Positions 3,041 to 37,222 of a DNA stretch of 49,603 bases are shown in pieces. The position numbers and the translations under genes are program-made. Under the pieces are notes generated by a model. It had not been told where the DNA came from and ran no database searches. It saw only the letters and a program-made list of their open reading frames with translations. Within the stretch, counting starts at the first letter, position 1. Each line of letters begins with the position of its first letter. Source of the DNA: an uncultured Eubacteriales bacterium (lineage in GTDB: Bacteria > Bacillota > Clostridia > Peptostreptococcales > Anaerovoracaceae). The DNA lies in assembly GCA_902795265.1 (NCBI GenBank), contig CADBKM010000015.1, positions 1-49,603 of the forward strand. The letters are read 5' to 3'.

Positions 3041-3581
3041 TGGATAAAAATCTTAAAGAGATCGTAATTCTGCATTCAAATGATATACACGGCAAGTTCG
3101 AGGGCGAAAAGGACGAGGACGGAAACATCCGCCACAGTCTGGCGCTGGTTTCAGGCTATGTAAACAGGGCAAAGAAGGAGAATCCGGACACTGTCTATGT
3201 CATAGCCGGAGATGTATTTCAGGGCTCGCTTATCGACAGTGAGTACCAGGGCCTGTCGACCATGGACATCCTCAACCTCATCGATATCGATCTGATGTCG
3301 CTGGGCAATCACGAACTCGACTACGGCATATCGCACATGATGTTCGTGTCGCGCTACGCGGATTTCCCTATACTCACCGCAAACTTCCGCATCAAGAAGA
3401 ACAACAGGAATCTGTTCAAGCCTTACCAGGTACTGGATATAGGCGGGTTCAAGGTGCTCTTCATCGGACTGATCACGGCAGGCACATAGTCGCTGAAGAC
3501 GCGTTCAGCGTACTGAAAAAATACCTCAGCGAGCACAAGGGCCTCGGCAGCAGAGTCGACAAGCGCATCATTATAAAATAG
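3040..3581 (+). pseudogene. 5'-nucleotidase/metallophosphatase gene with central deletion
   Basis: The first 149 codons encode the N-terminal calcineurin-like half of a UshA/YfkN-type 5'-nucleotidase: HSNDIHGK (DxH metal site), VIAGDVFQGS (GD), and SLGNHELDYG (GNHE). The frame then stops at 3487-3489 just after FIGLITAGT. A different frame starting at 3486 reads IVAEDAFSVLKKYLSEHKG and runs to a stop at 3581; this looks like the extreme C-terminus of the same family. Complete members have about 480-520 residues, so roughly 300 residues, including the second metal ligands and substrate domain, are gone and the junction is out of frame. The gene is inferred to be inactive. A short truncated protein could still be made because the start is coupled to pcrA. 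Confidence 0.75.
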
Positions 3582-35140: not shown

Positions 35141-35235
35141 GGAGAGATACCCAAGTGGCTGAAGGGTCTGGCTTCGAATACCAGTAGGTCGGTAGTACCG
35201 GCGCGAGGGTGGTTCAAATCCCTCTCTCTCCGCCA
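35141..35235 (+). tRNA. tRNA-Ser (anticodon CGA)
   Basis: Acceptor arms GGAGAGA and TCTCTCC, discriminator G and encoded CCA. The D arm is CCC-AAGTGGCTGAA-GGG; the anticodon stem-loop reads CTGGC-TTCGAAT-ACCAG giving CGA with a C-A mismatch next to the loop. A long variable arm GTCGGT-AGT-ACCGGC marks a class II serine tRNA reading UCG. The T arm is odd: GAGGG and CCCTC pair only if the loop is TGGTTCAAAT (ten bases), or else TTCAAAT is closed by GGTGG/CCCTC with one mismatch. The length is 92 without CCA. Confidence 0.88.
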
Positions 35236-35310: not shown

Positions 35311-35602
35311 CGTATTGCCTGATAAGGATATATAAACTTTTGGCAATACAGCATCATGAACACAAGAAGGTACTGTATTGCCTCGTAAGGATATATAATC
35401 TTTAGGCAATACAGCATGATGGAAATAAGCAGGCACTGTATTGCCTGAGCTAAATAAGCAGCTGTCAGGCAATACAATTAAGACAAAAAGATGGAATAAT
35501 GTATTGCCTCAAAATGTTATTAACCTTTCAGGCAATAATAGAGGCTCAAGAAACCGGATGGCTGTATTGCTGCAAATGCGTATAGATGCGATAGGCAATA
35601 AA
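35311..35602. repeat. five-unit inverted-repeat array with exact 63-bp period
   Basis: TGTATTGCCT occurs at 35311 (first base C), 35374, 35437, 35500 and 35563 (TGTATTGCTG); its inverse AGGCAATACA occurs at 35341 (TGG...), 35404, 35467, 35530 (ends AAT) and 35593 (ends AAA). Each pair is separated by 20 bases and each unit by 23, so the period is exactly 63. Units 1 and 2 also share loop and spacer sequence; units 3-5 differ there although lengths are kept. Each unit could form a 10-bp stem with a 20-base loop. 63 bp is six turns of B-DNA, putting all arms on one face. It lies between the tRNA terminator and a miniprotein gene. Confidence 0.92.
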
Positions 35603-36112: not shown

Positions 36113-37222
36113 ATGAGTGATAAAGTCAAGGTAGGAATCAACGGTTTTGGCCGTATTGCGCGTATCATCATCCGCAGTCTGGAGCTGCGTGATACCAATA
36201 TAGAGGTAGTTGCTGTCAACCTGCACCATGCTGATCACAAAAGAATGGCATATCAGGTAGAGTACGACTCAGTATTCGGCCGTTTCATGGGAGAAGTTGA
36301 GGCAACAGAAGATGGCATACGCATAAACGGAAAGGACATCCACGTATTCTCTGAGGACGATCCTGCAGATATCAACTGGTCCGCTTATGGTGCAGAGTAT
36401 GTTATCGAATCTACGGGCAAATTCCTGACAAAGATGGCTGCATCCCGCCACTTCCTCGGCGGAGCCAAAAGGGTCATCCTGACAGCTCCGGGCAAATCAG
36501 AAGATATCCCTACATTTGTCATGGGTGTAAATGAGGAAACATATGACCCGGCTTCAATGACTGTCGTTTCTAATGCCAGCTGCACAACCAACTGCCTGGC
36601 TCCTCTGACTAAGGTAATACACGAGGCATTCGGAATCGAGAAAGCCCTCATGTCTACGATCCACGCTTCTACATCCAAGCAGAAACCTGTAGACTCCAAC
36701 GGAGGCCGTGACTGGAGAACAGGCCGTTCCGTATTCAATAATATAATTCCGTCTACGACAGGCGCAGCTAAAGCCGTCGGCAAGGTTATCCCTGAGCTGA
36801 ACGGCAAGATGACAGGAATGAGCTTCCGTGTACCTTGCAATGATGTATCAGTTGTAGACCTGACAGCTCAGCTCAAAACAAAGACGACATACGAGGAAAT
36901 CTGTGCCGCTATCAAAAAAGCTGCAGAAGGTTCGATGAAAGGCATCATCGAGTACAACAACGATGAGCTCGTATCATCCGACCTGCGCGGAAATTTCAAC
37001 ACATGCATCTTTGATGAGAAAGCCGGCATCATGCTCGATGACAGCTTTGTAAAACTCATCGCATGGTACGATAATGAGTGGGGATATTCCAACAAGGTTA
37101 TCGACCTGGTAGAGCACATTGCAAAGACCGATGCAGCCGTACTTGCTTCAGGCAAAAACGTCAAGAAGCCTCTGGTAGTTGAGGAAGCAGTTCAGGAAGC
37201 AGCTGCCGCCAAAAAGGCTTAG
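36113..37222 (+). CDS. gap: glyceraldehyde-3-phosphate dehydrogenase
   Basis: Glycolytic or gluconeogenic enzyme forming 1,3-bisphosphoglycerate. Rossmann start VGINGFGRIARI, catalytic SNASCTTNC (C157), the mobile loop MSTIHASTSKQKPVD, RTGRSVFNNIIPSTTGAAKAVGK and the C-terminal WYDNEWGYSNKV are all present. At 369 residues it is about 30 longer than usual because of an Ala/Lys/Glu-rich tail after VLASGKNVKKPL. In the cofactor strand it reads VVAVNLHHAD, where NAD-specific enzymes have VNDL or IND; loss of this aspartate suggests relaxed or NADP preference. AAAGGAG precedes the ATG. No pgk or tpi follows; it is a single-gene unit. Confidence 0.95.
   Translation: MSDKVKVGINGFGRIARIIIRSLELRDTNIEVVAVNLHHADHKRMAYQVEYDSVFGRFMGEVEATEDGIRINGKDIHVFSEDDPADINWSAYGAEYVIESTGKFLTKMAASRHFLGGAKRVILTAPGKSEDIPTFVMGVNEETYDPASMTVVSNASCTTNCLAPLTKVIHEAFGIEKALMSTIHASTSKQKPVDSNGGRDWRTGRSVFNNIIPSTTGAAKAVGKVIPELNGKMTGMSFRVPCNDVSVVDLTAQLKTKTTYEEICAAIKKAAEGSMKGIIEYNNDELVSSDLRGNFNTCIFDEKAGIMLDDSFVKLIAWYDNEWGYSNKVIDLVEHIAKTDAAVLASGKNVKKPLVVEEAVQEAAAAKKA

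Follow-up and report, generated by a model that had tools for sequence, protein, structure and literature searches.

An array of helix-phased inverted half-sites, one copy of a Clostridia repeat family that often accompanies nuclease-like genes

The repeat array in the window (the whole stretch of 49,603 nucleotides analysed here, which belongs to contig C15 of genome G000) is one copy of a family of Clostridia arrays that often lie beside a large, unnamed family of nuclease-like genes and, together with these genes, appear to form an undescribed protein-plus-repeat system. Helix-phased arrays of this kind are tied to the protein family: the arms and the whole-turn spacing are kept and the intervening sequence is not, paralogs often have adjacent arrays with other arms, and arm and protein change together. 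For the window array itself, we favor, with a probability of about 0.6, the interpretation that it serves as a dispersed platform for the binding of a cognate protein of 273 amino acids (aa), encoded elsewhere in the genome (contig C40), that would bind the array cooperatively on one face of the DNA. The protein likely binds the arrays, and it possibly cuts or spreads them as well. The open-licence literature in PMC yielded no earlier description of such arrays.

The array consists of five TGTATTGCCT-N20-AGGCAATACA units with a period of exactly 63 bp (Table 1; F denotes TGTATTGCCT and R its reverse complement). The ten alternating half-sites, the 20- and 23-bp gaps and the 63-bp period described in the initial annotation were all recovered in place: the inner gaps are 20 bp long in 5 of 5 units and the linkers 23 bp long in 4 of 4, with five half-sites matching the 10-mer exactly, three with one mismatch and two with two. 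The window contains 13 sites with at most one mismatch to the 10-mer, 8 of these inside the array, whereas 2.76 would be expected and the count of 13 was never reached in 100 shuffles; the array is far beyond chance. With TRF, the 63-bp period is detected at 35312-35446 (2.1 copies). The array is unlikely to be a decayed coding repeat because related arrays have periods of 62, 64, 65 and 74 bp, none of them a multiple of 3. The family protein had no match within the window (tblastn, E 1e-5).

Table 1 Parts of the window array, neighboring genes and a second repeat (positions in the window, except where a locus is named)
Feature	Position	Strand	Description
Half-site F1	35311..35320	+	CGTATTGCCT, one difference from the 10-mer
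Half-site R1	35341..35350	-	TGGCAATACA on +, one difference
Half-site F2	35374..35383	+	exact
Half-site R2	35404..35413	-	exact
Half-site F3	35437..35446	+	exact
Half-site R3	35467..35476	-	exact
Half-site F4	35500..35509	+	exact
Half-site R4	35530..35539	-	AGGCAATAAT on +, two differences
Half-site F5	35563..35572	+	TGTATTGCTG, two differences
Half-site R5	35593..35602	-	AGGCAATAAA on +, one difference
Whole array	35311..35602	.	five palindromic F-N20-R units, four 23-bp linkers; copy away from the gene
tRNA-Ser(CGA)	35141..35235	+	upstream neighbor; outside the system
GAPDH gene	36113-37222		other flank of the window array
Second palindromic repeat	L011 ~2573-2620 and ~3117-3160 (G000:C36); L050 ~455-490 (G000:C58); L200 1364- (G000:C52)		

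The assembly from which the window was taken (G000; 70 contigs, 1.95 Mb, 86% complete) carries arrays with the TGTATTGCCT arm on contigs C5, C15 (the window array), C25, C36, C40, C48 and C58. In the loci that we inspected, arrays lie between genes, in differing orientations. Among the listed arrays of this genome and of G041, the linkers differ in sequence and are exactly 23 bp long in 25 of 29 cases (one linker with a run of N was excluded), the others being 33, 33, 22 and 12 bp, that is, two of these four are longer by 10 bp; the loops are 19-22 bp long. By eye, most of these arrays begin with F and end with R, with the exceptions of the G041 C27 array, which starts with R, and the C25 array, which has an extra F. 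The loops of the C5, C36 and C48 arrays are alike (0.74-0.79 identity); the best loop matches of the other arrays (0.33-0.55) are at about chance level, with 95% of single random pairs below 0.50. Matches to the R-N23-F pattern with up to two mismatches were found in 3 of the 47 genus genomes, namely, 25 in G000 (at least one of which, on C49, looks like chance), 9 in G041 and 1 in G002; the reversed control gave one match in each of two genomes. Of 7 contig stretches, 5 (L013, L014, L016, L017 and L019) contain a single unit each, in cyanobacteria and other unrelated organisms; we estimate that chance alone would yield one or two of these, and they were therefore dropped as chance-like.

The C5 and C40 arrays probably derive from one array that the assembly split in two, given that a PTS gene and a gene of the family flank a single array in G002 and G041; the order gene-array-PTS gene is found in G041 and G002 (with a degenerate array in G002) and is split over C40 and C5 in G000. 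In G002, the degenerate array is separated from the PTS gene by a further short tandem repeat, AGCCCTGTGGGGCTCAGTATGAAACA with variants (L086 ~1310-1480, G002:C41). The G000 C5 and G041 C27 arrays, which adjoin the same PTS gene, have little in common except for arms and lengths. Compared to G000, the PTS protein is only 88% identical in G041 and 95-96% identical in several genomes that lack TGTATTGCCT arrays, so that, by this single-gene measure, the presence of these arrays is patchy. Contigs C5 and C40 begin inside an array (L009 1-404 and L012 1-96), and one array includes a run of N (L034 1521-1592); thus, such arrays may interrupt assemblies, and their lengths may be underestimated. Some arrays have in their vicinity a second palindromic repeat, TGAGTCAG...GGGGACGT or ACGTCCCC...CTGACTCA (Table 1), which looks like a REP-type element of another system.

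The gene that adjoins the sister array on C5/C40 (G000:C40:200-1018) encodes the 273-aa protein. This protein has no Pfam match over the cut-off and no NCBIfam match; a Pfam search up to E 5 returned UB2H alone, at 0.16 and below the cut-off, and no Nop domain, and a PDB sequence search with the family protein gave no match below E 0.38. Homologs from the family are present in 43 of the 47 genus genomes, usually, several per genome. Close orthologs of the C40 protein were found only in G002 (76%) and G041 (67%), with the next best match at 48%; the three genomes with a close ortholog are the same three that carry TGTATTGCCT arrays, and in both G002 and G041, the ortholog adjoins one such array. 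Profile matches were obtained in 135 of 393 genomes sampled from the order (E 0.001), 130 of them from the same taxonomic family, and in 27 of 391 genomes sampled from the class (E 1e-15), 22 of them outside the order. For one ortholog pair, dN/dS is 0.17; dS is saturated for the G000 pairs.

Conservation is 0.26-0.31 in the first 130 residues, 0.47 in the remainder and 0.54 in the core. The N-terminal YY...G..K..YLG stretch may resemble DNA-binding segments of integrases. The C-terminal domain matches the PADLOC profile PDC-S68 in 18 of 18 members and PDC-S69 in 17 of 18. In two plasmid relatives, the shared domain lies at the end of an SF1-type helicase; the plasmid and phage records have the C-terminal domain alone in common with the family, and two such records from a phage collection showed no array. 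E168, D198, E214 and G217 are invariant in the 18 proteins, as are E154, D186 and E202 in a set of 11 proteins, 3 of which are common to both sets. With its invariant E, D and E, the C-terminal half appears to resemble PD-(D/E)XK nucleases, the third motif in the family being E-H-x or E-Y-x, not ExK.

A DNA-binding protein common to the neighborhoods of such arrays had been suggested as a check in the initial annotation, and a candidate protein family is indeed common to many of them. An inverted-repeat array, mostly with differing arms, lies beside 40 of 80 family loci (chain score of at least 3.6), at most 613 bp from the gene, on the 5' side of 25 genes and the 3' side of 15; in 34 of the 40 loci, exact half-site copies are confined to one side of the gene. 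Among the control loci, 4 of 76 have an array (Fisher p 1e-10), and at a stricter score of 4.5, the counts are 29 of 80 family loci vs 0 of 76 controls. The 80 family loci are the best matches plus 40 that were hand-picked from profile lists and are not a random draw; of the 80 control loci (tRNA-Ser, PTS, Y1), 8 score, and the 4 that hold own or cis arrays were left out, giving the 4 of 76; family genes were masked and control genes were not. Of the four scoring controls, L105 (G008) and L112 (G010) are arrays of the same kind; the other two are a 54-bp inverted repeat (L056) and a short chain (L132). The threshold of 3.6 was set after seeing the shuffles (maximum 3.0 in 40 and 2.95 in 40; 1 of 10 reached 3.6 with a wider gap limit), and 9 of the 40 family matches score only 3.6-3.65, near this threshold. 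The chain score was adopted because earlier array detectors failed on short linkers and degenerate arms; the earliest of them already picked up arrays with other arms beside paralogs, against none in 30 shuffled loci. No array was detected at the other 40 family genes; visual inspection reveals one at both L139 and L157. Of the three other paralogs of G000, those on C9 and C17 fall short of the threshold, and the one on C52 has a nearby repeat that seems to be of a different kind. On average, segments between half-sites share 0.59 identity (26 arrays), and in a few arrays they are as unlike one another as spacers would be. In G010, one array lies beside a gene (L163, C20) and another away from a gene (L112 3904-, C11), with the arm TGTATCAG and a period of 106 bp, or ten turns; this arm begins like the window's TGTAT, and the proteins are only ~32% identical.

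The interpretation of 63 bp as six helical turns, put forward in the initial annotation, is borne out by 38 related arrays (score of at least 3.3 and a consistent period), whose periods cluster at ~42, 53, 63, 75, 86, 95 and 106 bp, near multiples of 10.6 bp. The detector includes no term favoring multiples of a turn. At 10.6 bp per turn, R is 0.82 with an offset of 0.03 bp (Rayleigh p ~8e-12; 0 of 2000 jittered sets reach this R), and a scan of turn lengths peaks at 10.7. At a score of at least 3.6, 34 arrays remain with R 0.82, and with one array per protein cluster, p is ~3e-6 at 45% identity (n=20) and ~1e-3 at 40% (n=13). Off the rule are L200 (57) and, weakly so, L235 (72). Irregular steps within arrays mostly differ by approximately whole turns (65 among 76, 52 among 63, 95 among 63 and 74 among 53), as does the 33-bp linker against 23 bp in the G041 C3 array; steps of 80 among 74 in L149 and 111 bp (among 75) in L284 fit poorly. 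Ten further loci, one from this taxonomic family and nine from other orders, include 6 with scores of at least 4.0; the five other-order arrays have periods of ~84.3, 74.4, 85, 74.8 and 62.3 bp, or 7.9 to 8.0, 7.0 to 7.1 and 5.9 turns (the weak L286, with 51-52, was excluded), a modest replication because 4 of the 5 come from one genus and two have a common arm. Selection on spacing, likewise proposed previously, is upheld, given that gap sequences are hardly alike in some arrays where arms and lengths persist. In L207, L213 and L222, the arms (at most one mismatch) and the period hold while identity between the intervening segments is only 0.26-0.42, which argues for constraint rather than recent copying.

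Arm and protein similarity are correlated across the 40 loci (Mantel test on arm profiles, Pearson 0.33, Spearman 0.17; 0 of 5000 permutations reach the Pearson value). The signal comes mainly from the 25 closest protein pairs, with a mean arm similarity of 0.48 vs 0.29-0.34 in the distant bins. The orthologs L151 and L152 (82%) have the common arm ACTTCCGT, L140 and L143 (57%) share TGGTCC, and the G000 and G041 genes share TGTATTGCC; the arms of L150/L209 (70%) and L150/L202 (59%) do not look alike. Units with the ACTTCCGT arm occur in 16 of the 47 genus genomes (11 with two or more), with up to 27 in G013 and 0 or 1 in the reversed control. A close gene for this arm was found only in G013 and G025, with the next relatives at 54-55%; the 16 assemblies are 77-96% complete. 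No family member was found in G008, which has 21 such units; single units also occur in this genome. Either the gene is often lost while the arrays persist, or it is missing from the assemblies, or another protein reads these orphan arrays.

The proximity of the window array to a tRNA gene had suggested an integration site. We rejected such tRNA-linked integration because other tRNA-Ser loci lack the array and other arrays lack a tRNA: among 30 tRNA-Ser loci inspected, from 44 genomes with a match, only the window locus has a TGTATTGCCT array and none of the 29 others has one after the tRNA, and ten stretches with other arrays of G000 and G041 contain no tRNA gene. In G044, the tRNA-Ser is directly followed by GAPDH, with no array between; the G041 tRNA-Ser stretch contains neither an array nor a GAPDH gene and, given the absence of the latter, is not the same site as the window. 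Three other tRNA-Ser neighborhoods carry features of their own. L056 2929-3089 (G044:C5) is a 54-bp tandem repeat of inverted half-sites GGTCTTGC, five turns in period, ~1.4 kb from the tRNA-Ser; L134 ~1471-2218 (G046:C11) is a RAYT-like Y1 transposase gene after the same tRNA-Ser, roughly at the place of the window array; and in L062 ~947-1118 (G017:C39), a second copy of the 3' part of the tRNA-Ser and of its downstream sequence follows the gene, which may reflect past integration or recombination.

Under the favored interpretation, the C40-type protein would bind each inverted half-site pair as a dimer, and the whole-turn spacing would put the bound dimers on one face of the DNA, allowing for cooperative binding. 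The phased site for a DNA-binding protein that the initial annotation envisaged is supported. Less securely, the nuclease-like domain might act on the arrays or nearby DNA, so that the arrays become homogenized and spread into new sites; such a life style would resemble that of RAYT and REP, with another enzyme and another form of repeat. More tentatively still, and with more doubt than confidence, we consider an undescribed Clostridia system in which many paralogs have private half-sites of ~8-12 bp, the helix-phased arrays are selfish satellites copied by the cognate nuclease, and the protein-arm pairs hold a readable DNA-recognition code.

In RAYT-REP and REPIN systems, dispersed palindromes are accompanied by a cognate nuclease-type gene flanked by the repeat, the repeats differ between species, and tandem REP arrays exist (PMC3733652, PMC3116915). 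The arrays described here are similar in being dispersed palindromes with a cognate gene of putative nuclease type, but are mostly tandem inverted half-sites at whole-turn spacing, with several paralogs per genome. No match to PF01797 (Y1/HUH) was found in G000 (86% complete) or G002 (79% complete), and the one strong match in G041 was read as IS200-type. The GTAG/CGTC tag reported at the foot of the REP palindrome (PMC3733652) has no conserved counterpart at the arm ends in the units that we inspected. Four loci carry long Y1 genes with weak scores, and one of them (L132) also has a short chain of inverted repeats (score 4.0); RAYT genes of the genus may, therefore, be accompanied by their own repeats. 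That the arrays are REP/BIME or MITE-type repeats, unrelated to the family genes and next to them incidentally, would fit the dispersal of palindromes between genes and the ACTTCCGT units in 14 of 16 genomes where no cognate gene was detected; however, the lack of a Y1 transposase match in G000, the strength of the gene association at both score thresholds and the arm-protein covariation make this explanation improbable. Tn7-like ends are comparable in that arrays of transposase sites lie near a gene and sites have been compared among close homologs (PMC8649781); the likeness extends to inverted-repeat arrays near a gene, but here the exact half-site copies are mostly confined to one gene side, and no paired ends were seen.

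Transcription of the array as a chain of RNA hairpins, as a type III antitoxin or as guide RNAs appears very improbable. The predicted fold of the window array is stable (z -5.65), a value that carries little weight because any inverted repeat would give it, and by-eye inspection of compensatory changes in TGTATTGCCT-type arms gave a mixed picture. The arrays do adjoin a nuclease-like gene, and in some of them, the segments between half-sites differ like spacers. However, an RNA gives no reason for helical steps, the arrays lie on either side of the genes as well as away from any family gene, and there is neither an Rfam match over the window array nor a Nop domain among the Pfam matches; the hairpin chain envisaged earlier is accordingly disfavored. 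In type III toxin-antitoxin systems, an RNA repeat array lies upstream of the toxin gene, whereas here 15 of 40 arrays are 3' of the gene and others are away from family genes. CRISPR arrays are set apart by the form of the repeat: here only arms of ~8-12 bp are conserved, not long, near-identical repeats. TIGR-Tas similarly combines short repeats with variable segments beside a gene, upstream or downstream (PMC12045711), but has a 36-nt unit, whereas our arrays consist of inverted copies of one half-site with segments of ~2 to 55 nt and a period set by helical turns, beside a protein with no Nop domain match.

A depot or self-tolerance function is unlikely. In this scenario, the arrays would keep the nuclease inactive and assembled, or label self DNA, with the nuclease directed against invading DNA. 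The many paralogs with different arms would then be an arms-race feature, and the several diverged paralogs per genome, along with the homology of the C-terminal domain to the candidate defense protein PDC-S68 in all 18 members, are in its favor. The PDC-S68 profile differs in its length of ~1200 positions and in that two plasmid relatives carry SF1-type helicase domains. Against this function, neither the three exact arm patterns nor the family protein had a match in viral contigs, so no viral target was seen, and arrays persist also where no cognate gene was detected. A structural or regulatory role, with the protein being a domesticated DNA-organizing factor and the arrays its chromosomal anchor sites, with no cutting, is quite unlikely: helical phasing over ~4 to 10 turns and the location of arrays between genes, in differing orientations, agree with it, but the invariant E168, D198 and E214 suggest retained catalysis, and the presence is patchy, with the TGTATTGCCT arm in 3 of 47 genomes.

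If the binding-platform interpretation and the protein-repeat system that it implies hold, the arrays would represent a new class of bacterial repeat, distinct from both CRISPR and REP-RAYT, that follows a clear physical rule, spacing by whole helical turns, legible in the raw sequence. A large unnamed gene family of Clostridia would then have a DNA partner, and its paralogs would provide a series of protein-site pairs for the comparative study of DNA recognition.
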